64,000 nucleotides of DNA from Nocardiopsis algeriensis (GTDB lineage Bacteria > Actinomycetota > Actinomycetes > Streptosporangiales > Streptosporangiaceae), in NCBI RefSeq assembly GCF_014203695.1, contig NZ_JACHJO010000005.1:1-64000 (forward strand). The letters are read 5' to 3'. The notes below the pieces were generated by a model. That model worked only from the letters and a program-made list of their open reading frames with translations, did no database searches and had not been told where the DNA came from. This document shows positions 112 to 24,411 of the stretch, piece by piece. A program made the position numbers and the translations under genes. Position 1 is the first letter of the stretch. Every line of letters starts with the position of its first letter.

Positions 112-119
112 AAAGGGCT

Positions 120-473
120 CAGTACCTCGCCGTTACGGGAAGAGATGACCAGAGGCTTCAAGAGGCTCAATCCGGGATCGATCTCGCGGCCTCCTACGAG
201 TTTTACTACCTAGCCGGCTGCTTCAACGGAAGAGCCGGAATCCTGTCCTATCTTGCGCAGGCCATACGCCTGCGTCCTGATGGTGTGCTGGAAGCGACGG
301 CCCGGAGACTGGTGGAGAGCCTTTCCCTCTACGCGGGTGTGCACGAGGGGCGTGTGGTGTTTGCAGGCAACCATCTTCTGAGGCTTTCCGCGGACCTGGC
401 AACCGGTTCTGCCGGAGTCCTTTTGGCGCTCAATGCCTGGTCAGGCGGGCAAGGTCTTCCTTTCCTCAAGTAG
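120..473 (+). pseudogene. C-terminal fragment of a class III lanthionine synthetase (LanKC), truncated by an IS
   Basis: About 118 residues read in frame to a stop at 471-473. They match the end of the LanC-like cyclase domain of RamC/AmfT/LabKC-type enzymes: FYYLAGCFNGRAGILSYLAQ, then LLRLSADLATGSAGVLLAL and the terminal LPFLK. Class III enzymes phosphorylate, dehydrate and cyclise Ser/Thr residues of precursor peptides, and lack the zinc Cys-Cys-His of classical LanC. No such ligands are visible here. The lyase, kinase and most of the cyclase (roughly 700 residues in a normal protein) are missing, because sequence left of about base 120 is transposase. The remaining portion may lie beyond the window, left of the IS. 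The precursor and exporter genes downstream support the assignment. Confidence 0.8.
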
Positions 474-490
474 CAAGCACAAATAAAGCT

Positions 491-547
491 TCCGGGCACG
501 GTGCCCGGAGCGGGTCGAACGACCCGTGTCGAAGGCGCTTCGCCTTC
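491..547 (+). promoter_or_regulatory. Three consecutive hairpins between lanKC remnant and precursor gene
   Basis: Three perfect inverted repeats lie end to end. 491-509 has arms TCCGGGCAC/GTGCCCGGA around one base. 511-526 has 7-bp arms CGGGTCG/CGACCCG. 531-547 has 7-bp arms GAAGGCG/CGCCTTC. None is followed by a T-run. The array precedes the Shine-Dalgarno AAAGGAGA of the precursor by four bases. It could attenuate read-through from the synthetase gene, be an RNA processing site, or protect the precursor mRNA 5' end. Function is inferred. Confidence 0.55.
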
Positions 548-565
548 ACTAAAGGAGAAAGAAAA

Positions 566-697
566 ATGAGCAAGATCCTGCAGATGCAGATGCTCGAGGC
601 GGTCTCCTCCCCTGAGACCACGGGGCTCGTGAGCACGCTCAGCGTCGTTTCCCCCTGCCCCGGCTGGCCCTCCGCCCTCACTTGGGGAAACTGCTAA
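566..697 (+). CDS. Class III lanthipeptide precursor, 43 aa, two labionin-type motifs
   Basis: An ATG 8 bases after a strong Shine-Dalgarno (AAAGGAGA, 551-558) opens a 43-codon gene ending TAA at 695-697. The leader starts MSKILQMQMLEAV, matching the ILxLQxLE helix that class III synthetases recognise. After a Thr-Thr-Gly at residues 18-20 the likely core holds two repeats: STLSVVSPC (Ser23, Ser26, Cys31) and SALTWGNC (Ser36, Thr39, Cys43). Both fit the S-x2-S/T-x3-5-C pattern that becomes labionin or lanthionine in labyrinthopeptins, SapB and AmfS. The peptide ends on the second Cys. Order (LanKC remnant, precursor, two ABC exporters) equals that of ram/amf loci. With the adjacent synthetase truncated, the peptide may be unmodified unless an enzyme elsewhere acts. 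The exact leader/core boundary is inferred. Confidence 0.85.
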   Translation: MSKILQMQMLEAVSSPETTGLVSTLSVVSPCPGWPSALTWGNC

Positions 698-711
698 TTC
701 CTGTGTGACCG

Positions 712-741
712 GGGGCTGAAGGCGCAAGGGCCTTCAGCCCC
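712..741 (+). terminator. Strong hairpin after the precursor gene (attenuator or partial terminator)
   Basis: Perfect 12-bp arms (GGGGCTGAAGGC and GCCTTCAGCCCC) flank a 6-base loop. It begins 14 bases after the precursor stop and lies upstream of the exporter genes, with no T-run. Such a hairpin typically makes the precursor transcript more abundant or stable than the downstream transporter mRNA; that role is inferred. Confidence 0.6.
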
Positions 742-780
742 TTCGAGTGAGGCCGACCAGGCCGGGTGGGGGGAAAGACG

Positions 781-10232: not shown

Positions 10233-11804
10233 TCAGGTGCCCTTGGCGGCGGGTGCGGGCTCCTCGGCCGGGGCGGCGGGCATGTCGATGCTGTCGCGCA
10301 GCTGGACCCTGGGCAGGAAGAGGGCCACGACCGCGCCGACCACGGCGATGCCGACGGCGACCAGGAACAGGTCACCGGTGGCGGTTCCGTAGGAGGCCTC
10401 GACGATCTCGCGGGCGAAGGCCGGCATGGCCTCCAGGTTGAGGGTTCCCGTGTCGGCCGCCGCGGCGCCCGAGGGGTCCACGCCGGCGGCGGCCATACCG
10501 TCGGCGATCTCGGTCGAGACGCGGTTGGCCAGGAAGGCGCCCAGGACGGAGACGCCGATGGTGCCGCCCAGGGAGCGGAAGAAGGCCACCGCGCCGCTGG
10601 CCGCGCCGAGCTCGCGCAGCGGGACCGAGTTCTGCACCACCAGCACCAGGTTCTGCATGGACATGCCCACGCCGGTGCCCATCAGAAGCATGCCGATGGC
10701 CACGACCGGCAGCGGGGTCGCCTCGTCCAGGAAGGACAGGACGGCGAAGCCGGAGACCAGGACCGCCATCCCGGTGACGACGTAGGACTTGACCCGGCCC
10801 GAGCGCGAGACCATGCGTCCCGAGACGGTGGAGGAGACCAGCACGCCCAGCATGAGCGGTGTGGTCAGCAGGCCCGCGGCGGTGGGTGAGTAGCCGCGGG
10901 AGAGCTGGAAGTACTGGCCCAGGAACACGGCACCGCCGAACATCGCCATGCCCACCGCGGCGCTGGCGACAATGGCGATTGCGCTCTCACGGCGCATGAC
11001 CAGGTGCAGCGGGATGACGGGTTCGGACACCCGGGACTCCACCCACACGGCCAGGCCGAGCAGGACGACACTGGCGCCGACCATGGCGGCGCTCTGCCAG
11101 GAGACCCAGGCGAAGCTGCCCCCGACGAAGGTCACCCACAGCAGCAGGAGGCTGACGCCCGAGGCGATGAGTACGGCTCCGGGGTAGTCCACCTTGGTGC
11201 CGGGCCGGCGGACGTCCTCCAGGTGCAGGGTGCGGCTGAGCACGACGAAGGCCAGGAGCATGAACGGCACGCCGATGAGGAAGCACCAGCGCCAGCCGCC
11301 CCACGGGATCTCGGCGAGTGCACCGCCCACCAGAGGACCACCCACGGTGGCGATGCCCATGATGCCGCCGATGTAGCCGTTGAGGCGGCCGCGGTCCTTG
11401 GGACTGACGAGGGAGCCGATGATCACCTGGACCAGGACCTGCGAGGCGCCCATGCCCAGGCCCTGGATCGCACGGAAGGCGATGAGCTGGCCGGTGGTCT
11501 GGGCGAGGCCGCACAGCAGCGAGGCGACGATGAACAGCACGACCGACACCTGGAGCAGCAGCTTCTTGTCGAAGAGGTCGGCGAGCTTGCCCCAGATGGG
11601 TGTGGAGGCGGTCGAGGCCAGCAGGGCGGCGGTGACCACCCACGTGTACTGGGCCTGGGTGCCGTTCAACGAGCCCACGATCTGGGGCAGGGCGACCGAG
11701 ACGATCGTGCCGCTGAGCATGGTGACGCCCAGCACGGTGAAGAGCCCGACCAGCGAGCGTTTGACGGCGGGCCACTCGGGTGCTGGCGAAGGAGGTGCGC
11801 TCAA
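10233..11804 (-). CDS. MFS multidrug exporter, DHA2 (EmrB/QacA) family, 14 TM
   Basis: 523 residues from a TTG start preceded by purine-rich sequence. It shows the DHA2 pattern of 14 helices: SLVGLFTVLGVTMLSGTIVS with the VALPQIV motif, the A-loop GKLADLFDKKLLL, the antiporter motif C region GYIGGIMGIATVGGPLVGG and RWCFLIGVPFMLLA. Such proteins expel drugs and dyes by proton antiport. It is divergent from the TetR gene and shares a control region containing tandem palindromes, so it is presumably repressed by that TetR and induced by a ligand. The substrate cannot be read from the sequence. Confidence 0.88.
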   Translation of the reverse strand: MSAPPSPAPEWPAVKRSLVGLFTVLGVTMLSGTIVSVALPQIVGSLNGTQAQYTWVVTAALLASTASTPIWGKLADLFDKKLLLQVSVVLFIVASLLCGLAQTTGQLIAFRAIQGLGMGASQVLVQVIIGSLVSPKDRGRLNGYIGGIMGIATVGGPLVGGALAEIPWGGWRWCFLIGVPFMLLAFVVLSRTLHLEDVRRPGTKVDYPGAVLIASGVSLLLLWVTFVGGSFAWVSWQSAAMVGASVVLLGLAVWVESRVSEPVIPLHLVMRRESAIAIVASAAVGMAMFGGAVFLGQYFQLSRGYSPTAAGLLTTPLMLGVLVSSTVSGRMVSRSGRVKSYVVTGMAVLVSGFAVLSFLDEATPLPVVAIGMLLMGTGVGMSMQNLVLVVQNSVPLRELGAASGAVAFFRSLGGTIGVSVLGAFLANRVSTEIADGMAAAGVDPSGAAAADTGTLNLEAMPAFAREIVEASYGTATGDLFLVAVGIAVVGAVVALFLPRVQLRDSIDMPAAPAEEPAPAAKGT

Positions 11805-11923: not shown

Positions 11924-12517
11924 GTGGACAGAACACCCGGGCTGCGCGAGCGCAAGAAGGAACAGACGAGGCGGGCGGTGCACGAGGCCGCCCTGCGTCT
12001 GGCCGTCGAGCGCGGCTTCGACAACGTGACCGTCGACGCGATCGCCGAGGCAGCCGACATCTCCCGACGCACCTTCTCCAACTACTTCGCCGGCAAGGAG
12101 GACGCCGTCCTCTACGCGGGGGAGCAGCGCATCGCCGACCTCGTCGGCGCCCTGCACGACCGGCCCGCCGACGAGCCCGCGTGGACCGCGCTGCGCGCCG
12201 CGGCCCGGGCCCTCTACGGCGCCGAGTCCCCCTCCTCCGACCGGGAGTGGGCCCAGCGCACCCGCATGGTCCACCAGCACCCTTCGCTGCTGGCCCGCCA
12301 GCTCGCCAACCAGCACACGCTCTCGCGCGACCTGGAGGCCGCCGTCAAGGGGCGCGCACTGCCGGCCGGGACGTCCCGGCCCGCGCTGCTGGTGGCCGCA
12401 TTCCTGTCGGGACTGCGCATCGCCCTGAGCGAGTGGACCGAGGCCCAGGACGACCGCCTGCTGATCGATGTGGTCGAGGAGGCCCTGGACGAGGTGGAGA
12501 AGCCCTTCGGCACATGA
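11924..12517 (+). CDS. TetR-family transcriptional repressor of the MFS exporter
   Basis: 197 residues from GTG 11924. The N-terminal helix-turn-helix reads TVDAIAEAADISRRTFSNYF, typical of TetR. The ligand domain (from about residue 60) is variable and gives no ligand hint. It is divergent from the DHA2 exporter over two 17-bp palindromic units, the standard layout of a repressor controlling an efflux pump and itself. The creatininase-family gene begins 51 bases downstream on the same strand and could be co-transcribed, but no functional link is evident. Confidence 0.88.
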   Translation: MDRTPGLRERKKEQTRRAVHEAALRLAVERGFDNVTVDAIAEAADISRRTFSNYFAGKEDAVLYAGEQRIADLVGALHDRPADEPAWTALRAAARALYGAESPSSDREWAQRTRMVHQHPSLLARQLANQHTLSRDLEAAVKGRALPAGTSRPALLVAAFLSGLRIALSEWTEAQDDRLLIDVVEEALDEVEKPFGT

Positions 12518-12567: not shown

Positions 12568-13278
12568 ATGGACGACCCAGCACTCTCCCTGCTGCCCCTG
12601 AGCACCGGCCCCGAGGAGGGCGAGCGCGCCGCCCGGGTGGCGCTGCTGCCCGTGGGCAGCCTCGAACAGCACGGACCCCACCTGCCCCTGGTCACCGACA
12701 CCGTCGTCGCCTGCGCCCTGGCCGCTGAACTGGCCCGCGCCCACTCCGCGCGGCTGCTGCCCCCGGTCGCGTTCGGCTGCTCCCACGAGCACGCCGCCTG
12801 GCCCGGCACGGTGAGCATCTCGGCGGGAACACTGGCGGCCGTGGTCGAGGACATCGCCGCCTCCCTCGGTGAGACCCGCCTCGTTCTCGTCAACGGCCAC
12901 GGCGGCAACCACGTTCTGGCCAACACCGTCCAGGCCTCCGGGGGGCGTATGGCCCTCTACCCCGGTCCGGCCGACTGGGAGGCGGCCCGCGTCGCGGCGG
13001 GGATGGCCACCGACAACGAGCGCGACATGCACGCCGGAGAGCTGGAGACCTCCGTGCTGCTGCACGTGCGGCCCGACCTGGTCCGACCCGGCCACGAGAA
13101 GGCCGATCACCTCACCGGCGAACGCGAGCACCTGCTCACCCTGGGGCTGGCCGCCTACACCGAGTCCGGGGTGGTGGGCCTGCCCTCCCTGGCCACGGCC
13201 GCCAAGGGGCGCGACCTCCTGGCCTTCCTCACCGAGCGCTTCGCCGGGCATCTCGCGGCACTGGACCGGGCCCGCTGA
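12568..13278 (+). CDS. Creatininase-family amidohydrolase (ArfB/MftE-like fold)
   Basis: 236 residues. The metal ligands are all visible: Glu33, His35 and Asp44 in GSLEQHGPHLPLVTD, His112 in VNGHGGN, and Glu159 in MHAGELETS. The family includes creatininase, the mycofactocin peptidase MftE and the archaeal formamide hydrolase ArfB, which deformylates the pyrimidine (FAPy) made by GTP cyclohydrolase III. There are no mft genes here. A GTP cyclohydrolase II with a residue change expected to yield FAPy lies 3.6 kb away, so an ArfB-like deformylase or related amide hydrolase is the best guess. It converges with the methyltransferase-glycosyltransferase-PTPS operon. Substrate is inferred. Confidence 0.8.
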   Translation: MDDPALSLLPLSTGPEEGERAARVALLPVGSLEQHGPHLPLVTDTVVACALAAELARAHSARLLPPVAFGCSHEHAAWPGTVSISAGTLAAVVEDIAASLGETRLVLVNGHGGNHVLANTVQASGGRMALYPGPADWEAARVAAGMATDNERDMHAGELETSVLLHVRPDLVRPGHEKADHLTGEREHLLTLGLAAYTESGVVGLPSLATAAKGRDLLAFLTERFAGHLAALDRAR

Positions 13279-13362
13279 GGGGCGTCCGGCTCCCGCCCGC
13301 CGCGAGCGGTGCTCCGGCGGGCGTCGCGCCCCGCCCCCGGTCGGACGCACCGGCCCGCGGGG

Positions 13363-14148
13363 TCACCGGGGCGGGGCGAAGCCGGGAGGCAGGAGCAGCA
13401 GGTCGTCGTGGTGGACGGCGGCCGACAGGCGGCCCGCGGCCAGATCGGCCAGGCGCCGCTCCAGATAGGCCTCCGCAGGCAGGAACGGGGCCTGGGCGGC
13501 CGCGGCGCCCACCCATCCGCGCAGCCAGGCCTCGGTCAGCTCCGCCCGGGTCGCGTCCAGCCGCCACGGGCTGGGAAAGGCCAGGCAGCGGTAGCCGCGG
13601 CCGGCGAAGGCGTCGGCCGCCGCCGCGACGGCGTCCGGCCCGAGGAGCCCGCCGCGCCGCTGGTGGCCGTTGAAGGCCTCGCCGAACACGTGGTCCAGCG
13701 GGTCGGAGGGCGAGAGCTCCACCCGGCCCGTCACCGAGAGCGTGAACAGTGCGGGGCAGCCGACCGCGGCGACCGAGTCGGCCACCGCTGCCACGGTGTC
13801 CCCGGTGAGCATGTCCAGCAGGGCCGAGGCCGCCACCAGCGTCGCCCCCTCCAGGTCCCGGGGGCGCAGGTCGGCCAGGTCGAGCAGCCGGGTCTCGACC
13901 GTGTCGGCCGGCACGCTCGTGCGGGCCGCCTCCAGCAGCACCGGGTCGTGGTCGAACAGGATCCAGTGCCGCGCCCCGGGCAGGCGAGGGGCCAGCCAGC
14001 GGCCCAGCGAGCCCGTGCCGCACCCCAGGTCGGCGACGGTCCGGCCGTGCCCGCGCAGCAGCGCGACCGGACGTGCGGCGCGGGCTCGGGCGTCGGCGCC
14101 CTCGCGCATCGCCAGCCATTCGGGAGTGAAGGCTCCGGCCCCGCTCAA
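13363..14148 (-). CDS. Class I SAM-dependent methyltransferase of the pterin-like cluster
   Basis: 261 residues from a TTG start whose TTGA overlaps the stop of the glycosyltransferase gene. SAM motif I is VADLGCGTGSLG near residue 40, followed by an acidic motif II region (WILFDHDPVLL). The C-terminal half (PSPWRLDATRAELTEAWLRG) is not one I can assign to a named subfamily. It is the last gene of a four-gene operon (dehydrogenase, PTPS-like, glycosyltransferase, methyltransferase). It probably methylates the product or an intermediate of that pathway; the acceptor is unknown. Confidence 0.75.
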   Translation of the reverse strand: MSGAGAFTPEWLAMREGADARARAARPVALLRGHGRTVADLGCGTGSLGRWLAPRLPGARHWILFDHDPVLLEAARTSVPADTVETRLLDLADLRPRDLEGATLVAASALLDMLTGDTVAAVADSVAAVGCPALFTLSVTGRVELSPSDPLDHVFGEAFNGHQRRGGLLGPDAVAAAADAFAGRGYRCLAFPSPWRLDATRAELTEAWLRGWVGAAAAQAPFLPAEAYLERRLADLAAGRLSAAVHHDDLLLLPPGFAPPR

Positions 14149-15215
14149 CGGGTCTCCTCCCGGTCGAGGAGGGCGGCCGTCTCCCGAGCCGCCTCCTCCC
14201 AGCCGGTCAGGTCCTCCCGGCGCAGCAGGGCCGACCGCCGGAGCCGGGCGCGCAGCCGTCCGTCGGTGAGCCAGCGGCGCAGCTCCCGCGCCAGGGCGGC
14301 GGGGTCGCCGGGAGGCACGAGCATTCCCGGGAGGGACCCCTCCCGGTCGCGGCCGAGGGCCTCGGGTACCCCGCCCACACGGGAGGTCAGGACGGGGAGG
14401 CCGCGGGCCAGCGCCTCGGTGATCACCATGCCGTAGGTCTCACCGTGGGTGGGGAGCACGAACAGGTCGGCGCCGGCGTAGGCGTCCTCCAGGGCTGCGG
14501 GGGTGAGCGTCCCGGGGAAGGAGACCCGTCCGCCGATGCCCAGGCGGCGGGCCTGTTCCCTCAGCAGCGAGGCTCGGGAACCGCCGCTTCCCGAGAGGGA
14601 GGCGGACAGGCCGCCGTCGGGTCCGGCGCACACGCAGCTCCAGGGCAGGTCGGCGGCCGAGGCGAGTGCCTCCAGCAGCACCTCGTGCCCCTTGTGGCGG
14701 CTCAGCGAGGCCACGCACAGCAATCGGGAGCCGTCGCCCGGTGCTGCGGCGGGGGCCGGGTCGGTGCCCGGGACGACCACCGCCGGGAGTTCCAGGCCGT
14801 GGCGGCGGGCCAGGTGGCGGGCCGCCCAGCCGCTGGTGGCCACCACGGTGCGCGCGCACTCCAGGGCCGCGCGCTCCAGCGTGTCCAGTTCGGCGGCCTC
14901 GGCGGGGTCGTGCGCCCCTTCGGCCAGGGGCAGGTGCACGATCACGGCCAGGTGCAGCCGGGCCGCGTGGGGGTGCAGTACCTGGGGGACGCCGCAGGCC
15001 ACGAGCCCGTCGAGCAGGACCGCTGCCCCGTCGGGCTGCGCGGCCAGCAGGTGCTGCAGTGCGGCGGTCCCTTCGGGGCCCGGTCGGGGCCAGGCCCCGG
15101 GCAGCTCTCTGCGGTGCACCGGTCGGCCCAGTTGCGTGAGCGCCTCGGCCAGGCGGCGGTCGTAGGTGTTGCCGCCGCTGGGCACGGTGTCCGGCGGGAC
15201 CGCGAAGACCGTCAC
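14145..15215 (-). CDS. GT4-type glycosyltransferase of the pterin-like cluster
   Basis: 356 residues from a GTG that overlaps the upstream stop as GTGA. N-terminal Gly-rich acceptor loop [16 protein letters not shown]-terminal donor domain with [40 protein letters not shown] and the retaining-GT4 motif [20 protein letters not shown], containing the E-x7-E signature. Retaining GT-B enzymes transfer sugars from nucleotide donors. Tight coupling with the PTPS-like gene suggests that a pterin- or pyrimidine-derived compound is glycosylated. Donor and acceptor are not readable. Confidence 0.82.
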
Positions 15216-15595
15216 AGGTCGCGTTCGTAGCTCGCCCACGCCACGTGGGACTCGTGCAGTGTCACCGCGACGGAGCACAGCCCGGCCGCGTGGTCGCCGA
15301 GCCGTTCCACCAGGCGGTCGGCCACCTCCTTTGCCAGGAACTCGGTGGTGGTGTTGACACCGGCGAAGTCGGGTTCCTCGTCCAGGTTGCGGTAGTTGAG
15401 TCCGGCCACCACCTCGCCCAGCGCGCCGGTGGCCATGCCGATGTCCACCACGACGCCGTTCTCGTCGAGTTCGCGGCGGCGCAGGGTCGCGTCCACCACG
15501 AACGTGGCGCCGTGCAGTTTCTGGGCGGGTCCGAAGACCTCGCCGCGGAAGCTGTGCGCCACCATCAGGTGGTCGCGGACGGTCACACTGAACAT
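15212..15595 (-). CDS. 6-pyruvoyltetrahydropterin synthase-like protein with incomplete zinc site
   Basis: 127 residues with the T-fold pattern of PTPS/QueD. True enzymes bind zinc through one His and a later His-x-His and use a Cys nucleophile. Here His14 (AHSF) and His28 are present, but the usual HGH reads HGA (Ala30), and there is no Cys between them. The pterin-anchoring Glu near the C-terminus ([14 protein letters not shown]) is kept. This is the state reported for S. coelicolor SCO6650, a PTPS homolog without zinc or PTPS activity but with a pterin-like pocket. It sits 10 bases after the dehydrogenase gene and overlaps the glycosyltransferase. Likely role: binding or converting a pterin-like or FAPy-derived substrate. 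Confidence 0.8.
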
Positions 15596-15605
15596 CTCGC
15601 TCCTC

Positions 15606-16580
15606 TCAGGGGTAGGTGATGCGGTGGCACAGCGCGGGCAGGGTGCCGTCGGAGAGCCGGGGCAGCACCTCGGGCAGCTCCTCGAAGAGACTCTCCCCGG
15701 TGAGGAGGGCGTCGAAGGCCGGGTCGGTGAGCAGCTCCAGCGCCAGTGCCAGTCGCTCGGCGTGGTCGTAGCGCGACCGGCGCGCGGGGGAGATCATCCC
15801 CACCTGGCTGGCCCGCACGGCCAGCCGGTGCGAGTGGAAGTCCTCGCCCAGGGGCAGTATCACCCTCCGGTCCCCGTACCAGCTCAGCTCCACGACCTCG
15901 CCCTCGGGGGCGAGCAGTTCCAGGGAGCGGGTCAGTCCCGCCTCGGTGGCGCTGGTGTGGAAGACCAGGTCGCAGTCGCCCTCGGCCTCGGAGGCGTGGG
16001 CGAACCGGGTGCCGATCCGCTCGGCGATCCGCGCGCGCTCGGGCACCACGTCCACCAGCTGCACCCGCACGCCGGGGATCTGCGAGACCAGCCGGGCCAC
16101 GCAGCAGCCCACCATCCCGGCGCCCACGACGGCGACCCGGTCGCCCACCATCGGCGAGGCGTCCCACATCGCGTTGACGGCGGTCTCGACGATGCCCGCG
16201 AGCACCGCGCGCTCGGGCGGGACCCCCTCGGGCACGACCGACACGGCCGAGGCCGGGACGGTGAACAGCGTCTGGTGCGGGTACAGCGTGAAGACCGTCC
16301 GCCCCTCCAGGTGCGGCGGCCCCTCCTCCACGGTGCCGACGTTGAGGTAGCCGTACTTGAGCGGGGCGGGGAAGTCGCCCTCCTGGAACGGCGCCCGCAT
16401 CACCTCGTACTGGTTGGGCGGCACCCCTCCGCCGAAGACGAGGGTCTCGGTGCCCCGGCTGATCCCCGAGTACAGCGTGCGCACCAGGACCTCGTCCGGC
16501 CCCGGGGCGGGCACACCGACCTCCCTGATCTCCCCCTCCCCGGGGGAGCGCACCCAGAACGCGCGTGCTGTTCGCTTCAT
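15606..16580 (-). CDS. MDR-family NAD(P)-dependent dehydrogenase of the pterin-like cluster
   Basis: 324 residues from ATG 16580. The medium-chain dehydrogenase layout is present: N-terminal catalytic domain ([20 protein letters not shown]), then a Rossmann fold [19 protein letters not shown]. In the position of the zinc-binding Cys-Gly-x-Asp of alcohol dehydrogenases the sequence reads ISRGTE, as in the BchC-like branch, so catalytic zinc may be absent. The gene leads the operon with PTPS-like, glycosyltransferase and methyltransferase genes. An oxidation or reduction of the cluster product's side chain is inferred. Confidence 0.78.
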
Positions 16581-16846
16581 CGTTCCCCTTTCCCGAGCGC
16601 GGTGCCCCGGCTCGGTGCCGCCGGGGAACCGCTCCCACCAGACTTGCAGACCTCGCGCGGGAAACCCCCGCAACCCCGCCGGTTCGCGACCGCCGCGGCG
16701 GGTCGGGAGCGGTGCCCGGAGCAAGGAGCGGCCGGCGTCGCTGCGCCGGGGGCGAGGAGGGAGGGTTCCGCGGCGACCGGTTCCTGGCCCGCCGGGGGCA
16801 GGGCGCGCGGTCCCTCCGGGCCCGCGCGCCGCCGGCCGGGGCCGGA

Positions 16847-17470
16847 TCAGCCGCCGCCGAGGTGGGGCAGGTCGTGGCCCAGCCTGTCGCGCTTGGCGGT
16901 GAGATAGGGGCGGTTCTCCGTGCGCACCGGGGCCAGCAGGGGTGTGCGGGCCGCCACCTTGACCCCGTGCTCCTCCAGGGTGCGCACCTTGTCGGGGTTG
17001 TTGGTGAGCAGTCGCACCGAGTGCACGCCCAGGTGGTGCAGTACCCTCGCGGCGGGCGCGTAGTCGCGCGTGTCCACGGGCAGGCCCAGCTCGGTCGCGG
17101 AGTCCACCGTGTCCAGTCCGTGCGCGTCCTGCAGGACGAGTGTGCGCACCTTGTCCAGCAGGCCGATACCGCGGCCCTCGTGGCCGCGCAGGTAGACCAG
17201 CACGCCCCGGCCCTCGGTGCGGATCTCCTCCAGGGCCGCCTCCAGCTGGTCCCCGCATTCGCAGCGCAGCGCGCCGAAGACGTCACCCGTCACGCATTCG
17301 GAGTGCAACCGGACGGGGACCTCCTCCTCGTCGCGGACATCTCCGAGCACCATGGCCAGGTGCTCGGAGCGGTCCGCCGGGTCGCGGAAGGCCACCGCGC
17401 GGAAGGGTCCCCCGCGGGTGGCGACCTCCGCCTCCGCCACGTCCTCGGCATCCATGCCCCGGTCGCTCAT
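16847..17470 (-). CDS. GTP cyclohydrolase II paralog with Tyr-to-Leu substitution
   Basis: 207 residues from ATG 17470, after a Shine-Dalgarno GAGGGGG. Zinc ligands Cys59, Cys70 and Cys72 (HSECVTGD, LRCECGDQ), the GHEGRGIGLLDK catalytic stretch and the LLTNNPDK loop are present. E. coli RibA has Tyr105 in KIRAYALQD; the aligned residue here is Leu111 (KVRTLVLQD). In the S. coelicolor paralog SCO6655 a Met at this position was reported to stop the reaction at the formylated pyrimidine FAPy rather than the riboflavin precursor. A Leu should act alike. The gene is not next to rib genes but heads the cluster with the PTPS-like protein, 266 bases upstream of the dehydrogenase. FAPy as product is inferred. 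Confidence 0.85.
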   Translation of the reverse strand: MSDRGMDAEDVAEAEVATRGGPFRAVAFRDPADRSEHLAMVLGDVRDEEEVPVRLHSECVTGDVFGALRCECGDQLEAALEEIRTEGRGVLVYLRGHEGRGIGLLDKVRTLVLQDAHGLDTVDSATELGLPVDTRDYAPAARVLHHLGVHSVRLLTNNPDKVRTLEEHGVKVAARTPLLAPVRTENRPYLTAKRDRLGHDLPHLGGG

Positions 17471-17751: not shown

Positions 17752-20127
17752 TCACCCCGCGTCGGCGGATCCGTCGGCGGATCCGTCCACGCGGGCCCGA
17801 CTGAGCAGGTGGCGGGAGTGGTCCACGGTCCGCTCGGGCCCGCGCAGGCGGATCGGTACCCGCAGGCCCGGGTCGGCGCTGGAGGCGGCCAGGTACAGCT
17901 CCAGGTCGCCCGGCTCCACGATCCGCCTGCCGTCGGGGCCGGTGTAGGCGGACAGGTCGGCGTGCACGGTGAACTCCACGCGGCGCCCCGCCCTGGGCTC
18001 CAGGTCCACCCGCGCGTACCCCACCAGGCGGCGCACCGGCCGGGTCACCCTGGCCACCGGGTCGCTCAGGTACAGCTGCACGACCTCCGTGCCGGCGACC
18101 GCGCCCTCGTTGCGCACGGTGCATCCGACGGTCACCTCGCCGTCGGTGCCCACCTCGGCCGGTTCGGCGCCGGGTTCCACGGCCGCGCCGTCCAGGACCG
18201 GGTCGGACCAGCCGAAGCGGGTGTAGGACAGGCCGTGTCCGAACGGGAACAGCGGGGTGGGGTCCACCGAGCTGACCTCCCCGGGACCGGCCAGCGGCGG
18301 GCCGAGGTAGGTGGTGGGCTGGCCGCCGGGGTCGCCCGGCACCCCCAGGGGCAGCCGTCCGCTGGGGTTGACCCGCCCGGAGAGCACCCCAGCCACCGCG
18401 GGTGCGCCCTCCTGGCCGGGGAAGAAGGCCTGCACGACGGCGGCCGTGCGGTCGGCGAGCGCGCCCAACGCGTAGGGGCGTCCGGTGAGCAGCACCAGCA
18501 CCACCGGGGTGCCCGTGGCCGCCACCGCCTCCACCAGTTCCTGCTGGACGCCGGGGAGGCGCAGGTCGGTGACGTCGCACCCCTCGCCGGAGGTGCCCCG
18601 GCCGAACAGTCCCGCCCGGTCGCCGACCACGGCCACGCACACCTCGGCGCCGCGCGCGGCCTCGACGGCCTCGGCGATCGCGGAGGTGTCGTCGCCGTCC
18701 ACCGTGCAGCCGGGCACGTGCACCAGTTCGGCGCCGGGCAGCTCGGTGTGCAGGGCCTCCAGCAGCGTGGCCATCTCCAGACCCAGCGGCACGTCCGGGT
18801 GCTGGGCGCCCACGTGGCTGGGGAAGGAGTAGCAGCCCATGAGGGCCTCGGCCGTGTCGGCGTTGGGGCCCACGACCGCGATCCTTCCCCGGTCGGCCAG
18901 CGGCAGCACCCCGTCGTTGGCCAGCAGCACGACCGATTCCTCGGCCAGGCGCCGGGCCAGGGCGCGCTGGTCCCCGGTGTCCAGGGAGAGGTCGTCCTCC
19001 TGGGGTTCGGGGGCCCAGTCCTCGTCCAGGAGCCCCAGTTCGCACTTCTGGAGCAGCACCCGGCGCACCGCCCGGTCGACCAGCTCCTCGGGCACGCGCC
19101 CGGCGCGCACCTCCTCCAGCAGCGGTTCCCCGTAGCAGTGCAGCGTGGGCAGTTCGACGTCCACGCCCGCGGACAGGGCCAGCGCCGCGGCCTCGCCGGG
19201 CGAGCCGGCCACCCGGTGCAGGGTCTCCAGGAAGGCGATGCCGAAGTAGTCGGCCACGACCGTGCCCTCGAAGCCCCACTCCTCGCGCAGGAGCCCGGTG
19301 AGCAGCCCGGCGTCGGCCGCCGCGGGCAGCCCGTCGTTGTCGTTGTAGGCGTGCATCACCGATGCGGCGCCGCCGTGGCGCAGCGCCATCTCGAACGGCG
19401 GCAGCACGGTGTCGGCCAGCTCGCGCGGCCCCATCGACACGGGCGCCAGGTTGCGTCCGCCCCGGGAAGCGGCGTAGCCGACGAAGTGCTTGAGCGTGGC
19501 CACGATCCCGGCCGACTGCAGGCCGCGCACGTAGGCGCTGCCCACCGTTCCCACCAGGTAGGGGTCCTCGGAGACGGTCTCCTCCACCCGGCCCCACCGC
19601 AGGTCGCGGGCCACGTCCAGGACGGGGGCCAGCCCCTGGTGGACGCCGACCCGGCGCATGCGCTCGCCGATGGCGGCGGCCATCCGCTCCACCAGGTCGG
19701 GATCGAAGGCCGCACCCCAGGCGGGCGGGGACGGGAAGACGGTCGCGGTCCAGGCGGTGAAACCGGTCAGGCACTCCTCGTGCACCTGCGCCGGGATGCC
19801 GAAGCGGTTGGCTGCCGCGATCTCGCGCTGGGCGCGGGCCAGCGATCGGGCCCCCGCGGCCGGCGCCACCGGGGCGGTGCCGAAGGGCCGTGTCAGCTGG
19901 CCCAGCCCGTGGGCCACGGCCTCCTCCCAGGAGGGCGGCTCCTCCATGTCGTGCTGGTGGGGGGCGACCCCCTCGCCGGAGGTGTCGGCACCGACCCACA
20001 GGCCGCGCAGCTGGGCGGCCTTCTCCTCCAGCGTCATCTGCGCCAGCAGGAGGTCGACGCGTTCTTCGGAGGGCAGGGACGGGTCCTGCCAGGGGGCGGG
20101 GGCGCTCTGTGCGGTGGGGCGCGTCAT
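17752..20127 (-). CDS. Glycoside hydrolase family 3 beta-glycosidase
   Basis: 791 residues without signal peptide, so probably cytoplasmic. Three-part GH3 architecture: TIM barrel with the substrate-binding KHF (213-215) and nucleophile Asp293 in VVADYFGI; alpha/beta sandwich (VGPNADTAEALMGCYSF); C-terminal fibronectin-like domain (VTVGCTVRNEGAVAGTEVVQ). Such enzymes release beta-linked glucose or xylose from oligosaccharides. ATG 20127 is chosen because GGAAAG lies just before it; ATG 20142 is possible. It follows the two sugar permease genes on the same strand, so it probably hydrolyses the imported oligosaccharide. Glucosidase versus xylosidase cannot be decided. Confidence 0.9.
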   Translation of the reverse strand: MTRPTAQSAPAPWQDPSLPSEERVDLLLAQMTLEEKAAQLRGLWVGADTSGEGVAPHQHDMEEPPSWEEAVAHGLGQLTRPFGTAPVAPAAGARSLARAQREIAAANRFGIPAQVHEECLTGFTAWTATVFPSPPAWGAAFDPDLVERMAAAIGERMRRVGVHQGLAPVLDVARDLRWGRVEETVSEDPYLVGTVGSAYVRGLQSAGIVATLKHFVGYAASRGGRNLAPVSMGPRELADTVLPPFEMALRHGGAASVMHAYNDNDGLPAAADAGLLTGLLREEWGFEGTVVADYFGIAFLETLHRVAGSPGEAAALALSAGVDVELPTLHCYGEPLLEEVRAGRVPEELVDRAVRRVLLQKCELGLLDEDWAPEPQEDDLSLDTGDQRALARRLAEESVVLLANDGVLPLADRGRIAVVGPNADTAEALMGCYSFPSHVGAQHPDVPLGLEMATLLEALHTELPGAELVHVPGCTVDGDDTSAIAEAVEAARGAEVCVAVVGDRAGLFGRGTSGEGCDVTDLRLPGVQQELVEAVAATGTPVVLVLLTGRPYALGALADRTAAVVQAFFPGQEGAPAVAGVLSGRVNPSGRLPLGVPGDPGGQPTTYLGPPLAGPGEVSSVDPTPLFPFGHGLSYTRFGWSDPVLDGAAVEPGAEPAEVGTDGEVTVGCTVRNEGAVAGTEVVQLYLSDPVARVTRPVRRLVGYARVDLEPRAGRRVEFTVHADLSAYTGPDGRRIVEPGDLELYLAASSADPGLRVPIRLRGPERTVDHSRHLLSRARVDGSADGSADAG

Positions 20128-20149
20128 GTGCGTTCTTTCCAAAGTCGGG

Positions 20150-20165
20150 GGCTCCCCGGGGAGCC
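20150..20165. other. Perfect 16-bp palindrome between permease and GH3 genes
   Basis: GGCTCCCCGGGGAGCC is fully self-complementary and lies in the 60-base gap between the second permease gene and the GH3 gene. It may form a small intra-operon hairpin that tunes expression of the enzyme relative to the transporter. Confidence 0.4.
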
Positions 20166-20187
20166 GTCGGTCGCGGGCGGGGAGCGG

Positions 20188-21033
20188 CTACTTGCCGCCC
20201 ACCCCCATGAGCCCGTTGACCAGGGAGCGGCGTGCCAGCAGGTAGACGACAAAGAGGGGGACCGTCGACAGCACCACGGCGGTGAGCAGGCCGGGAACGT
20301 CGACCCGGTACTCGCCCTGGAACTCGAACAGGCCCATCGTGATCACCCGCTTGTCGGCGGACTGGGTGAGGATGAGGGGGAACAGGAAGCCGTTCCAGGC
20401 CTGCAGTGCGGCGTAGACGCCCACCGTGCTCAGGCCCGAACGCGACATCGGCAGCACCAGCTGGGTGAAGGTGCGCGCCACCCCGGCCCCGTCCAGGGCC
20501 ATGGCCTCGTACAGCTCCTCGGAGATGTCGCGCATCGTGCCCACGAGGATCAGTACGCACACCGGGAGCGCGAAGGCAGCCGTGGGCAGCACGATCGCGG
20601 TCAGGGAGTCGTAGAGCCCCAGGTTCACGATGATCAGGTAGACGGGGATGATGACCGCCTGGGAGGGGATCGCCAGCCCCAGCAGGAACACGCGGAACAC
20701 GTTCTGGGTCCAGCGGCTGCGCGAGCGCACCACGGCGAAGGCGGTCGTCGCCGACAGCACCATGACCAGCACCGCCACCGCCAGGGTCACCAGCGCGGTG
20801 TTGCCCACGAACACCAGCAGGCCGTTGTCGATCGCGGCGACGTAGTTGCGCAGGGTCGGTTCCGAGGGCAGCGCCAGCGGCCCCTCGGCGGTGTAGTTCT
20901 CCGACCGCTGCACGGTGGCGATCAGCAGCGTGTACAGCGGCACCGCCACGACCAGCAGCCACAGGAAGGCTCCCAGGCCCCCCAGGACGTTGGGCTTCTC
21001 CCGCACCGGGCGGACACGTCGTACGGTGGTCAC
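20188..21033 (-). CDS. Sugar ABC transporter permease (MalG/GanQ-like)
   Basis: 281 residues with about six helices (LGAFLWLLVVAVPLYTLLIA, ALVTLAVAVLVMVLSATTAF). The binding-protein-dependent transport loop EAMALDGAGVARTFTQLVLP fits the EAAxxDGAxxxxxF-x-IxLP consensus that contacts the ATPase. GTG 21033 overlaps the stop of the previous permease. The operon carries no ATPase gene, as is usual for actinomycete CUT1 sugar transporters that share an MsiK-type ATPase encoded elsewhere. Confidence 0.88.
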   Translation of the reverse strand: MTTVRRVRPVREKPNVLGGLGAFLWLLVVAVPLYTLLIATVQRSENYTAEGPLALPSEPTLRNYVAAIDNGLLVFVGNTALVTLAVAVLVMVLSATTAFAVVRSRSRWTQNVFRVFLLGLAIPSQAVIIPVYLIIVNLGLYDSLTAIVLPTAAFALPVCVLILVGTMRDISEELYEAMALDGAGVARTFTQLVLPMSRSGLSTVGVYAALQAWNGFLFPLILTQSADKRVITMGLFEFQGEYRVDVPGLLTAVVLSTVPLFVVYLLARRSLVNGLMGVGGK

Positions 21034-21938
21034 ATTCCCTCCCGGGTACTGCGCATCGAGCCGAACCCGGTGAAGCGCACCATGAGCAGCGCGACCACCG
21101 TTGCGGCGAGGACCAGGGTGAAGGCGATCGCGCTCGCGTACCCCAGCTCCCAGCTCTTGAAGCCCACCCGGTACATCAGGAACGGGACGATGCTGGTGTC
21201 GGTGCCCGGACCGCCGCCGGTCAGGATGAGCACCGTGTCGAAGTAGGTCAGTGCACCCACCACCATCAGCACGGAGGAGGTGGTGATGGTGTGCCGCAGC
21301 TGCGGCAGGGTGATGTGCCAGAACATGCTCAGTCGGCCGGCGCCGTCGATGCGGGCCGCCTGGTAGAGGGACTCGGGGATCTGGCGGGCCCCTCCTTGGT
21401 AGAGGAGCATGTGCAGCGGGATGAACTGCCAGGCGCTGACGAACACGATCACCCAGAAGGCGCTGCCCGAGCCGCCGAGCAGGTCCAGGGACCCCAGGCC
21501 CAGCGCGGGCCCCAGCCAGGCCGCCGGCCCGAAGTTGGGGTCCAGCAGGGCGCGCCAGATGATCGCGACGGCGGCCGAGGACAGCAGCAGCGGCAGGAAG
21601 AAGATCGCCGAGAGCACGGCGCGCGTGCGCTGGCGTCCGGCCGCCCAGACGCCCAGCAGCAGGGCGATCGGGGTCTGCACCGCCCACGAGGCTGCGGTGA
21701 GCAGCAGGCTCAGCCACACGGCCTTGCCCATCAGCGGGTCGTCGAACAGCCGGGCCCAGTTGTCCAGGCCCACGAACCGGGGCGCGCCCAGGCCGCCCCA
21801 CTCGGTCAGCGACAGATAGGCCACCAGGGCCATCGGCAGCGCCGCGAAGACCGCGAAGTAGACGAGGCCGGGCACCGCCCACAGGGCGCCGGGCCGCCCC
21901 GTGCGAGGGGCGGACCCGGCGGGGGACTTCCTGGTCAC
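21030..21938 (-). CDS. Sugar ABC transporter permease (MalF/GanP-like)
   Basis: 302 residues from GTG 21938, overlapping the lipoprotein gene stop by GTGA. Six helices (ALWAVPGLVYFAVFAALPMALV first) and the EAA loop YQAARIDGAGRLSMFWHITLP are visible, with the family block TGGGPGTDTSIVPFLMY after it. It pairs with the following permease to form the membrane channel for the sugar bound by the adjacent lipoprotein. Confidence 0.88.
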   Translation of the reverse strand: MTRKSPAGSAPRTGRPGALWAVPGLVYFAVFAALPMALVAYLSLTEWGGLGAPRFVGLDNWARLFDDPLMGKAVWLSLLLTAASWAVQTPIALLLGVWAAGRQRTRAVLSAIFFLPLLLSSAAVAIIWRALLDPNFGPAAWLGPALGLGSLDLLGGSGSAFWVIVFVSAWQFIPLHMLLYQGGARQIPESLYQAARIDGAGRLSMFWHITLPQLRHTITTSSVLMVVGALTYFDTVLILTGGGPGTDTSIVPFLMYRVGFKSWELGYASAIAFTLVLAATVVALLMVRFTGFGSMRSTREGM

Positions 21939-23209
21939 AGCGCCGCCAGCGCGTCGACGAACTGCTCGGGCGTGCTCTGCCCGTTGAACAGGGACTCGAT
22001 CTCGGTGACCATCGGGGTGGCCACGTCCGGGGGCAGGGCCTGGTCCCAGGAGAGCTGGAAGTGGGGCGCGTCGCGCACCATCTCGTACTGGAAGGTCGCG
22101 AAGTCGGGGCTGGGGCTGTCGGCCAGCAGCTCCTCGGCGCCGGTGGTCGTGGGCACCTCGCCGTTGGCGACCATGTCGGCCACGTACTCCTCCTGGGAGG
22201 TGTACGTGAGGAACTCCAGGGCCGAGTCCAGGTGGGGGCTGTCGGAGGTCACGGAGAAGAAGTTGGTCGGGTTGCCCACGACGTTGGCGGGGTCGCCCTC
22301 GCCCCCGTCGATGGGCGGGAAGGCGGTGTAGCCCAGGTCCTCCTTGGCGAAGTCCTCGGCCTGGTCCAGGTGGGTCGAGTACTCCCACGAGCCCATGAGG
22401 TGCATCGCGGCCCGGCCCTCGGAGAGCAGCGTGGAGGCGCCGCCCTCGGTGTAGCTGACCGAGGCGTAGGCGTCGCCGAACGCGCCCCGGTCCACCAGCT
22501 CGGCCACCATCTCGGCGGCCTCCAGCACGGCCGGGTCGCGCCAGCCCTCGGAGTCGCCGCCCACGATGCGCTCGAACACCTCGGGGCCGCCGATGCGGTC
22601 CACCAGGTACTGCAGCCACATCTGCTCGGTCCAGGGGTCGGCCCCGGCCAGGGCGAAGGGGGTGACGCCCTCCTCGTTGAAGGTGTCGACCAGGTCCAGG
22701 ATGTCGTCCCAGGTCTCGGGCGGTTCGGCGCCGGCCTCCTCGAACACGGCCTCGTTGTAGAAGAGGATGACCGGCTGGGTGCCGCGCAGGGGGATCCCGT
22801 ACTGGACGCCGTCGATCTTGCCCGACTCCAGGACGGAGGGGATGAAGGACCCGGCGAACTCGGGGTTCTCGGCGAGCATGTCGTCCAGGGGCTCGAGCAT
22901 GCCCTGCTCGACGTAGGGCTCGATGCTGCCGCCACCCCAGTTGAAGAACACGTCGGGCTTCTTGCTGGAGCCCATCGCGGTGCGCAGCCGCTCGACGTAG
23001 CTGTCCCCGGGGACCTCGTCGATGACGGCCTCCGCGTCGGAGTCCGCGTTGAAGCGCTCGACCGCGCCCTCCTGCACGACCACCAGGGTGTCCTGGTACA
23101 TCCACACGTGCATCTCGTCGCTGCCCGCACCGCCGCCACCGCCGCAGGCGGTGGTGCCCAGCAGGGCGAGTGCCGCGACCGCGGCCGCGCTGACTCTGGG
23201 GGTAGTCAT
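21935..23209 (-). CDS. Sugar-binding lipoprotein of a CUT1 ABC transporter
   Basis: 424 residues. The signal peptide VSAAAVAALALLGTTAC ends in a lipobox with acylated Cys22, followed by a glycine linker. The mature protein is a family 1 solute-binding protein (VWMYQDTLVVVQEGAVERFN, PVILFYNEAVFEEAG, GRAAMHLMGSWEYS). It captures an oligosaccharide outside the membrane for the two downstream permeases. GTTTC/GAAAC palindromic sequence lies just upstream. The GH3 enzyme in the operon suggests a beta-linked oligosaccharide, though the ligand cannot be read directly. Confidence 0.88.
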   Translation of the reverse strand: MTTPRVSAAAVAALALLGTTACGGGGGAGSDEMHVWMYQDTLVVVQEGAVERFNADSDAEAVIDEVPGDSYVERLRTAMGSSKKPDVFFNWGGGSIEPYVEQGMLEPLDDMLAENPEFAGSFIPSVLESGKIDGVQYGIPLRGTQPVILFYNEAVFEEAGAEPPETWDDILDLVDTFNEEGVTPFALAGADPWTEQMWLQYLVDRIGGPEVFERIVGGDSEGWRDPAVLEAAEMVAELVDRGAFGDAYASVSYTEGGASTLLSEGRAAMHLMGSWEYSTHLDQAEDFAKEDLGYTAFPPIDGGEGDPANVVGNPTNFFSVTSDSPHLDSALEFLTYTSQEEYVADMVANGEVPTTTGAEELLADSPSPDFATFQYEMVRDAPHFQLSWDQALPPDVATPMVTEIESLFNGQSTPEQFVDALAAL

Positions 23210-23238
23210 GGCCCACCTTCTTCGAAACTATCGGGAAT

Positions 23239-23249
23239 GTTTCCGAAAC
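23239..23249. promoter_or_regulatory. Candidate LacI-family operator
   Basis: GTTTCCGAAAC is a perfect 5-1-5 palindrome 30 bases upstream of the sugar lipoprotein start and between it and the divergent LacI regulator gene. A further half site (TTCGAAAC) lies at 23221-23228. It has the symmetric core expected for a LacI-family dimer. Confidence 0.6.
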
Positions 23250-23367
23250 TGTGTCGTCAGAATGTACGGGTGTCCTGTGCGATCGTCAATAGCCCCCTGA
23301 GATCCACATCACCCTGGGGTGGGGCGGGGCGTGCCCGAGCGGCGGGAAGAGCGTAGTATCAGGCGGC

Positions 23368-24411
23368 GTGAGTGCAGAACCCCTACCTTCCGCCCGCTCC
23401 GACACAGGTTCGCAACCGATAACGATCTCGAAAATTGCGGAGGCCGCCGGTGTCTCGGTGCCGACGGTCTCCAAGGTGCTCAACGGCCGCGCCGACGTGG
23501 CGGCCGACACCCGGGCGCGGGTGGAGGAGCTGATCCGCCGCCACGGCTACCGGCGCCGGCGCGGCTCCGGGGCGGCGCGCTCGTCGCTGATCGACCTGGT
23601 CTTCCACGAACTCGACAGCGCCTGGGCCGTCGAGGTGATCCGCGGGGTGGAGAACGTCGCCCGCAGCGAGGGCCTGAGCGTCGTCCTGACCGAGACCGGC
23701 GGGGAGAAGACCCCGCGCGACGACTGGGTCGACTCCGTGCTCGCCCGCCACACCACGGCCGTGGTCCTGGTCTTCTCCGACCTTGCCCCCGAGCAGCGGG
23801 GCAGGCTCACCGCCCGCGGCATCCCCTGCGTCGTGGTCGACCCGGCGGGGGATCCGGCACCGGACATGCCCGCGGTCGGATCGGCCAACTGGAGCGGCGG
23901 CCTGGCGGCCACCCGCCATCTCCTGGAACTGGGGCACCGGCGCATCGGCGTGATCGGCGGGCCCCGGAGCGTGCTGTGCAGCCGCGCCCGCATCGACGGC
24001 TACGCCTCGGCCCTGGACTCGGCGGGTATCGAGGTGGACCCCGAGCTGGTCCGCCACGGCGACTTCCACGTCGAGTCGGGACGCGACCGCGGGCGCGAGC
24101 TGCTGCTGCTCGACGAGCCGCCCACCGCGGTCTTCGCCGGCAGCGACCTGCACGCCATGGGCCTGTACGAGGCCGCCCGCGAACTGGGGGTGCGCATCCC
24201 CGAGGACCTCAGCGTCGTCGGCTACGACGACCTGCCGGTGGCCCGCTGGGTGGGGCCGCCCCTGACCACGGTGCGCCAGCCGCTGACCGAGATGGCCGAG
24301 GAGGCGACCCGCATGGCGCTCACCCTCGCACGCGGGGAGAGCCCGCCCAACCCGCGCCTGGACCTGGCCACCGACCTGGTCGTGCGCGGGAGCACCGCGC
24401 CGCCGCGGTGA
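23368..24411 (+). CDS. LacI-family repressor of the sugar operon
   Basis: 347 residues from GTG 23368. The helix-turn-helix starts near residue 19 (TISKIAEAAGVSVPTVSKVL) with hinge NGRADVAADTRARVEELI. The rest is the periplasmic-binding-like effector domain (LGHRRIGVIGGPRSVLCSRA, TAVFAGSDLHAMGLYEAARE, SVVGYDDLPVARW). Divergent from the lipoprotein-permeases-GH3 operon with a palindrome between them, so it presumably represses the operon until the transported sugar or its product binds. Confidence 0.9.
   Translation: MSAEPLPSARSDTGSQPITISKIAEAAGVSVPTVSKVLNGRADVAADTRARVEELIRRHGYRRRRGSGAARSSLIDLVFHELDSAWAVEVIRGVENVARSEGLSVVLTETGGEKTPRDDWVDSVLARHTTAVVLVFSDLAPEQRGRLTARGIPCVVVDPAGDPAPDMPAVGSANWSGGLAATRHLLELGHRRIGVIGGPRSVLCSRARIDGYASALDSAGIEVDPELVRHGDFHVESGRDRGRELLLLDEPPTAVFAGSDLHAMGLYEAARELGVRIPEDLSVVGYDDLPVARWVGPPLTTVRQPLTEMAEEATRMALTLARGESPPNPRLDLATDLVVRGSTAPPR

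Follow-up and report, generated by a model that had tools for sequence, protein, structure and literature searches.

Background

GTP cyclohydrolase II (GCHII) normally opens GTP to a formylamino compound and then deformylates it; SCO6655 of Streptomyces coelicolor, which carries Met at the position of Tyr105 in RibA, reportedly yields FAPy (2-amino-5-formylamino-6-ribosylaminopyrimidinone 5'-phosphate). ArfA is a GTP cyclohydrolase III, unrelated to GCHII, and the pterin glycosides of cyanobacteria are made with GTP cyclohydrolase I, PTPS, a sepiapterin-type reductase and a glycosyltransferase. PMC9478397 describes archaea as splitting the GTP step of RibA between two enzymes, ArfA and ArfB, and reports that BrbF (SMc02977) of Sinorhizobium meliloti, a member of the creatininase family annotated as creatinine amidohydrolase, deformylates FAPy; its FAPy-making partner, which the authors named BrbG, was not found by them. 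Here we describe a locus at positions 12,568–17,470 of a 64,000-nucleotide stretch of Nocardiopsis algeriensis (contig NZ_JACHJO010000005.1, positions 1–64,000, the whole of which is called the window), in which a GCHII paralog, a creatininase-family protein and a PTPS-like protein lie together with an MDR oxidoreductase, a glycosyltransferase and a methyltransferase. No paper describing this locus was found in searches of a library of open-access articles.

We lean towards the reading that the locus encodes a GTP-derived pathway. The altered GCHII, having lost Tyr105 (here Leu) and being presumably impaired in deformylation, would open GTP to FAPy, and the creatininase-family enzyme would deformylate FAPy to DARPP, from which riboflavin is usually made. 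These two assignments are made because the two genes co-occur and because BrbF offers a precedent. The PTPS-like protein, MDR, GT4 and methyltransferase would turn this pool into a pteridine or ribityl-pyrimidine that is glycosylated and methylated and, in the full loci, may be lipid-linked. The two early activities in this organism are predicted, as are the sequence of the later steps and the product class.

Gene content of the window locus

12568..13278, plus strand: creatininase-family amidohydrolase (PF02633, 197 bits; motifs EQHGPHLPLVTD, NGHGGN and HAGELE), placed in the actinobacterial cluster clade
13363..14148, minus strand: class I SAM-dependent methyltransferase with a TTG start (PF13649, 34 bits); in relatives such as L034, L125 and L158, a homolog comes after GT4
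14145..15215, minus strand: GT4 glycosyltransferase (PF00534, 106 bits; E-x7-E motif)
15212..15595, minus strand: PTPS/QueD-like T-fold protein (PTPS profile, 85 bits; phmmer, 201 bits to 3d7j), HGA for HGH and no catalytic Cys
15606..16580, minus strand: MDR oxidoreductase, BchC-like, ATG at 16580, without the zinc motif (BchC profile, 51 bits, below the cut-off of 291)
16847..17470, minus strand: GCHII paralog with Leu at the Tyr105 position (PF00925, 209 bits; 2bz0 alignment), with the RGHEGR and CECG of the non-Tyr group

All six frames are open at these coordinates, and the families are those that a preliminary description, made from the nucleotide sequence, had assigned to them. MDR, PTPS, GT4 and methyltransferase form a minus-strand run (16580–13363); GCHII closely precedes them in the same orientation, and the creatininase gene lies on the plus strand. 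For GT4 we chose the GTG at 15215 as the likely start, which overlaps the PTPS stop (GTGA). The dehydrogenase of the preliminary description is present as an MDR-like gene, but its product lacks GHExxG, the catalytic zinc motif of zinc-dependent MDR alcohol dehydrogenases, and stays below the Pfam cut-off (23.5 versus 31.8).

Compared with the described systems, the likeness to SCO6650 and SCO6655 lies in the genes: a Streptomyces plasmid locus (S. fungicidicus, L295) and Streptomyces-like loci carry the same ones, with Met at 105, whereas the window has Leu and lacks their CDP-alcohol phosphotransferase gene as well as the flippase gene of the Streptomyces-like loci other than L295. As with ArfA and ArfB, the proposed window pair would share between two enzymes what RibA does alone. 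BrbF and the window creatininase are likened by family only, and BrbF serves riboflavin rather than a locus of this kind. The cyanobacterial pterin glycoside pathway, likened by description only, has similar enzyme types (T-fold, reductase and glycosyltransferase), but starts with GTP cyclohydrolase I, whereas the locus described here has GCHII, plus RibD_C and creatininase in many loci.

Residue changes in GCHII

The window protein exceeded the GCHII cut-offs of both PF00925 (208.5 versus 23.3) and TIGR00505 (208.9 versus 205.85). In the alignment with Escherichia coli RibA (2bz0), Leu stands opposite Tyr105, as noted beforehand (residue 149 of the longest frame, or 111 if the start is 17470), and Glu53, Cys54, Cys65 and Cys67 are kept; the residue pair of a DARPP-type RibA, Tyr105 with Glu53, is therefore represented by Glu53 only. 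A second GCHII of the same genome, a 443-residue frame of RibBA length on another contig, has both Tyr105 and Glu53 intact, and this, together with the conservation of the cluster, sustains the earlier proposal of a branch from GTP beside riboflavin.

Comparison was made over 155 loci, consisting of the window, 20 of 50 matched genomes of the phylum, the best 80 of 542 relatives and 54 regions from class and family matches (65 genomes, three of which were left out). The scan behind the best 80 of 542 used patterns from our own alignment and therefore favours this protein type; partner genes were counted as similarity matches above 40 bits and are undercounted where contig ends cut loci. GCHII was read at residues 105 and 53 in 90 loci, of which 50 have Tyr105; the other 40, all actinobacterial, have Met (22), Leu (9), His (8) or Gln (1). 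Nearly all of these 40 carry CECG for CDCG and RGHEGR for RxQEGR, the latter not being diagnostic because it also accompanies Tyr in the RibBA 4i14. Glu53 is replaced by Ala or Ser in 27 of the 50 Tyr105 loci, mostly from Proteobacteria; Gln at 53 in L067 was classed as intact. A fragment in L159 was dropped from these counts, and L042, which has no MDR, stands outside the set of 89 loci with MDR and PTPS. Among 15 GCHII outside the loci in the same genomes, all have Tyr105, and residue 53 is Glu in 13, Gln in one (L277) and unread in one; here 29 of 47 matches were read, L285 and L286 gave no residues, and low-scoring extra Proteobacterial copies were left out.

On a plasmid of Rhizobium sp. 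SL42, the locus GCHII (L294:5717-6823) reads HSSC, with Ser at 53, and scores 469.1 with PRK08815 (cut-off 464). No creatininase is among the 15 annotated features of L294, in a gene table that can be incomplete. GCHII of this type is a candidate for BrbG, offered as a lead only.

Association of altered GCHII with creatininase

The genes, their conservation and the association of GCHII with creatininase were observed directly. Among the 89 loci with a readable GCHII, MDR and PTPS, GCHII is altered at residue 105 or 53 in 67, and creatininase occurs in the same locus in 61 of these, a figure that rises to 64 if three truncated or nearby cases are added: the contig ends inside a creatininase gene beside GCHII in L133, the gene is about 13 kb away in L142, and it lies on another contig of the same genome in L128. 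None of the 22 loci with an intact GCHII has a creatininase. Together with the BrbF precedent (PMC9478397), these counts give comparative support to the suggestion that the creatininase is a FAPy deformylase. The two-residue pattern was found after looking, having been adopted when a first rule, that creatininase goes with the loss of Tyr105, was dropped; 23 Tyr105 loci also have a creatininase, and Glu53 is Ala or Ser in all of them. Mutual exclusion of creatininase and RibD_C was also considered and rejected, both being present in 23 Tyr and 5 Met loci.

On a quick tree, in which long branches were flagged, the altered state of GCHII changes 4 times and the presence of creatininase 5 times. 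Ten intact actinobacterial loci (L040, L122, L162-L166, L168, L171 and L172), all without creatininase, nest inside the altered, creatininase-bearing set with moderate support (SH-aLRT 90–91), and there the GCHII type and the creatininase seem to have been swapped out together.

The same data bear on an alternative that we judge unlikely, namely that the FAPy made by GCHII is itself the scaffold, with the formyl group kept, and that the substrate of the creatininase is a cyclic amide or acylguanidine formed later in the pathway, in keeping with the opening of creatinine by creatininase. It would suit a protein that falls below the cut-offs of both the ArfB and the creatininase profiles, and the 23 Proteobacterial-type loci in which creatininase accompanies a Tyr105-keeping GCHII imply that the enzyme is not bound to the loss of Tyr105 alone; however, the GCHII of all 23 has Ala or Ser for Glu53. 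Furthermore, the 22 intact loci have MDR and PTPS without creatininase, so the later steps seem able to run without it there, and FAPy deformylation within the creatininase family is demonstrated by BrbF (PMC9478397).

Relationships of the creatininase-family proteins

The window creatininase scores 143.8 bits with MftE (TIGR03964; cut-off 172) and does not reach the cut-off of the creatininase profile in the profile set that holds ArfB. The preliminary description had given it the fold of ArfB; membership of the creatininase family stands, but the protein is closer by score to MftE (144 bits) than to ArfB (29 bits) and misses the cut-off of each. Membership of the ArfB family failed (NCBIfam profile, 28.8 versus 180 bits), and MftE (mycofactocin) membership, prompted by the MftE-like score and an MftR-like score of the neighbouring TetR-type regulator, was rejected with both below cut-off. 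The strict NGHGG motif is present in 38 of 69 locus creatininases; since strict creatininase patterns fail in many rows, no claim was built on them.

In the creatininase trees, an actinobacterial clade on a long stem, which includes L222, is separate from a Proteobacterial clade, which includes enzymes from genomes that carry them outside such loci. A 97/89 branch lies between the two in the second tree, where the L247 row is only 16% filled. Constraining them to one clade cost 9.4 log-likelihood units (p-AU 0.054), or 12.5 (p-AU 0.025) with a wider row set, in approximately unbiased (AU) tests that count L222 inside the actinobacterial group and for which the groups were named only after the tree had been seen. 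Two separate recruitments of creatininase, actinobacterial and Proteobacterial, are thus favoured by these trees, not proven.

Several points weigh against the proposed production and deformylation of FAPy. The effect of losing Glu53 is assumed, and that of losing Tyr105 is taken from the FAPy reported as the product of SCO6655. The score of the window creatininase with ArfB, 28.8 against a cut-off of 180, is low. Single loci depart from the association: L129 has an altered GCHII and no creatininase match in its genome; L084, also altered, has nine creatininase matches in its genome, of which three were scored and none is of the cluster type; the altered L088 has a cluster-type creatininase elsewhere in the genome and not in the locus; and L107, with an intact GCHII, nonetheless has one elsewhere in its genome. 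The state changes give only 2 independent pairs on starred branches, or 4 on all branches, with none contrary and with creatininase constant in some pairings; with so few, significance is unreachable. The two recruitments are not secure, given the p-AU of 0.054 in one row set and the post hoc naming of groups. RibD_C, typical of Tyr loci, is missing from the window and from most non-Tyr loci, and the product may therefore differ between lineages. Finally, a metabolic-model table in PMC2853524 puts SCO6655 in riboflavin metabolism, an entry which, as that paper states, was taken from KEGG with no manual curation.

The PTPS-like protein

The PTPS-like protein of the window matched SCO6650 (PDB 3d7j) with 201 bits over 126 residues, its full length (phmmer, E 5e-59). 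This was the sole PDB sequence matched at E 0.01, and on this similarity we regard the protein as an ortholog of SCO6650. PTPS and QueD have three zinc His, those of HGH among them; the Cys before HGH is catalytic in both, and a conserved Glu is the pterin anchor in PTPS. The window protein belongs to the same T-fold family (85 bits) and keeps the Glu (E115), but the last His of HGH is Ala and no Cys precedes HGA, FGPA standing there instead; the preliminary description had noted the absence of the second His and of the Cys, as in SCO6650. A search of the genome of the window organism found no second PTPS-family match.

HGA is present in 120 of the 155 loci, the window included, and HGH in 32, which are of Rubrobacter and Chloroflexota type, with three outside this pattern; these include L053, a canonical-looking homolog with HGH and without any partner gene. 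The term "zinc-less", as applied earlier to the window protein, hence suits the HGA branch but not the Rubrobacter and Chloroflexota branch, which keeps HGH. Where L053 has GKC (GKC...HGH) and DHGYLN, the locus family reads FGPA and [HND]YR[ND]L[DN]. FGPA replaces the Cys region in both branches, and Glu115 is invariant (120 HGA and 30 HGH rows). The [HND]YR[ND]L[DN] motif is not invariant, with N70 in 98% and D72 in 100% of HGA rows, and D70 in 63% and D72 in 60% of HGH rows. Since FGPA is common to both branches, the loss of the Cys probably came together with the locus, and the loss of the second His would be a later change in one branch. Two duplicates (L045/L058 and L049/L054) leave 153 distinct PTPS sequences.

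RefSeq names in L293-L296 give the PTPS-like protein as 6-carboxytetrahydropterin synthase (queuosine) and the MDR as zinc-binding alcohol dehydrogenase. These labels, the former in particular, would agree with ordinary duplicate riboflavin or queuosine genes beside unrelated sugar genes, an explanation that we consider highly improbable: the catalytic Cys and the second His of HGH are gone, the window protein misses the QueD cut-off (37.5 versus 89.25), the same partner genes recur across phyla, and the genome has an intact RibBA-length GCHII elsewhere. On residues and gene context, both QueD/preQ0 and a simple duplication of riboflavin genes were thus rejected. The family lacks the residues on which the two names rest, GHExxG being found in 0 of 145 locus MDRs, the window included, and this suggests that both names (QueD-like and zinc alcohol dehydrogenase) are wrong.

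Distribution and a reduced form of the locus

PTPS matches were found in 50 of 396 sampled genomes of the phylum (E 1e-10), 57 of 394 genomes of the class (E 1e-15) and 14 of 61 genomes of the family; among the genomes listed in the class search, 11 of 13 from the genus of the window had one, the window counted. The loci are not confined to Streptomyces and occur in Actinomycetota, Chloroflexota, Pseudomonadota, Acidobacteriota and Gemmatimonadota. The best 80 of 542 relatives include Rubrobacter, Chloroploca, Oscillochloris, Roseiflexaceae, Sphaerobacter, Halomonas, Vreelandella, Thioalkalivibrio, Thauera and Methyloversatilis, as well as alphaproteobacteria, Acidobacteria, Gemmatimonadetes, Arthrobacter, Nocardioides and Nocardiopsis. 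Plasmid copies were found in Methylosinus trichosporium OB3b, Rhizobium, Thiodictyon and Streptomyces. By score, the closest relatives of the window set among the loci examined are those of Nocardiopsis L121, L125 and L128.

Across the 155 loci, GT4 was counted in 148, MDR in 147, a methyltransferase in 112, a CDP-alcohol phosphotransferase in 96, an LPG_synthase_TM flippase in 91, GCHII in 91, RibD_C in 88, creatininase in 69 and an FkbM methyltransferase in 24; Pfam confirmed examples of the CDP-alcohol enzyme, flippase, RibD_C, GCHII, creatininase and FkbM. The preliminary description had named, in advance, conservation of the cluster in related genomes as a point on which it could fail, and 142 of the 155 loci have both MDR and GT4 close to PTPS. 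Where MDR and GT4 share the PTPS strand, which is the case in 141 loci, 139 have the order MDR-PTPS-GT4, and this grouping is beyond chance. PTPS with all eight other types (FkbM aside) was found in 15 loci, eleven from Proteobacteria or, in one case, an acidobacterium, and four that are Streptomyces-like by similarity.

The window locus has no CDP-alcohol phosphotransferase, flippase or RibD_C gene and appears to be a reduced copy of this wider, apparently uncharacterised locus. In its Nocardiopsis relatives, the first of these genes occupies the site of a gap in the window:

16581..16846, minus strand: gap of 266 bases between GCHII and MDR, where L125 has the order GCHII-CDP-alcohol phosphotransferase-MDR

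No remnant of a CDP-alcohol phosphotransferase gene was found in this gap, either in its sequence or by searching the genome with the L125 protein, which gave two weak matches on other contigs and none at the window locus. These absences invite the explanation that the window copy is a decaying remnant whose product is no longer made, which seems to us distinctly improbable. L121 and L125 have the CDP-alcohol and flippase genes that the window lacks, and the PF03706 and RibD_C genes of the genome sit on other contigs than the window locus; RibD_C is missing from the window too, but L121 and L125 also lack it. All six frames are nevertheless open with the inspected motifs kept, and none of the 32 HGH loci of Rubrobacter and Chloroflexota type has either a CDP-alcohol phosphotransferase or a flippase gene; the core can therefore stand without them.

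The interpretation given in the preliminary description is thus partly supported, being right in direction and too narrow. The six genes that it took for a complete set are a cut-down version of a larger locus, which also contains RibD_C, CDP-alcohol phosphotransferase and flippase genes and is not restricted to actinobacteria. Its glycosylated, methylated product, if a pteridine, agrees with what we predict.

Other enzymes and predicted later steps

The PTPS-like protein keeps the pterin-type anchor but not PTPS chemistry, and may therefore catalyse a rearrangement or ring closure. The BchC-like MDR would reduce or oxidize a side chain, GT4 would add a sugar and the methyltransferase would cap the product. 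RibD_C accompanies GCHII in 48 of 50 Tyr105-type loci, is missing from 35 of 40 non-Tyr loci, and could serve either as a pterin reductase or to reduce the ribose chain. RibD_C of L050 passed the general RibD C-terminal profile (187 versus 150), and its nearest match, the archaeal diaminopyrimidine reductase, stayed below the cut-off (152.7 versus 186.45; L130, 112). The CDP-alcohol enzyme, in which the CDP-alcohol phosphotransferase motif D..DG..AR...G...D...D is kept in 95 of 96 loci, together with the flippase suggests a phospholipid-linked, exported form in the full loci.

In one frame (L122:6742-9012), the CDP-alcohol phosphotransferase is fused with a sulfatase-family domain (25.8 bits, cut-off 25). 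Stretches similar to this domain were seen in 28 of the 155 loci, and 11 of 23 actinobacterial loci examined (L040, L108, L165, L166, L168-L174) have a long gene with a median of 750 residues, an example of which starts CDP-alcohol-like. An MdoH-like gene (osmoregulated periplasmic glucans) is present in 14 of the 155 loci (L076, L080, L082, L083, L085, L089, L094, L100, L104, L105, L109, L110, L112 and L132), and a putative MdoG, the example of which had no NCBIfam match, in 15; on the Methylosinus plasmid, mdoH adjoins the MDR gene (L293:5079-6881). In the Streptomyces-like L034, L036 and L038 (L038:1024-4455), genes for an FAD oxidoreductase, an AlaDh_PNT_N protein and a saccharopine-dehydrogenase-like protein directly follow GCHII; these are probably amino-acid genes unrelated to the locus.

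Genes flanking the window locus

11924..12517, plus strand: TetR-type regulator (TetR_N, 47.5 bits; MftR-like, 80.7 bits, below cut-off), 50 bases upstream of creatininase on the same strand

This regulator is a possible regulator of the locus and a putative member of it. A DHA2-type MFS efflux gene (10233-11804, minus strand) is divergent from it, both lying beside creatininase, and the pair may export the product or be unrelated. Upstream of GCHII (17752-24411), a beta-glucosidase-like gene, sugar ABC transporter genes and a LacI-type regulator were recognized from the frames by eye only. The GC content is 0.63 in positions 1-4000 and about 0.69–0.75 in the rest of the window.

Implications

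What is new here is the breadth of the locus and the pattern joining GCHII and creatininase. As a rather doubtful extension, the locus, found in at least five phyla, might in its full nine-gene form make an unknown envelope molecule: the CDP-alcohol phosphotransferase would join a glycosylated pteridine or ribityl-pyrimidine phosphate to phospholipid, the LPG_synthase_TM flippase would carry the conjugate across the membrane and, in some lineages, a sulfatase-family enzyme would pass it on. The core without the phosphotransferase and flippase genes, as in the window, Rubrobacter and Chloroflexota, would then make a soluble version, and, in rhizobia, the FAPy-making partner not yet found for BrbF might also be a GCHII that has lost Glu53.

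The pathway appears to be common to soil actinobacteria, halomonads, Chloroflexota phototrophs and Rubrobacter, and a new cofactor, pigment or envelope lipid is likely to come from it. The way in which creatininases go with the loss of either of two GCHII residues may help to find the GTP-opening enzyme of the BrbF riboflavin branch.

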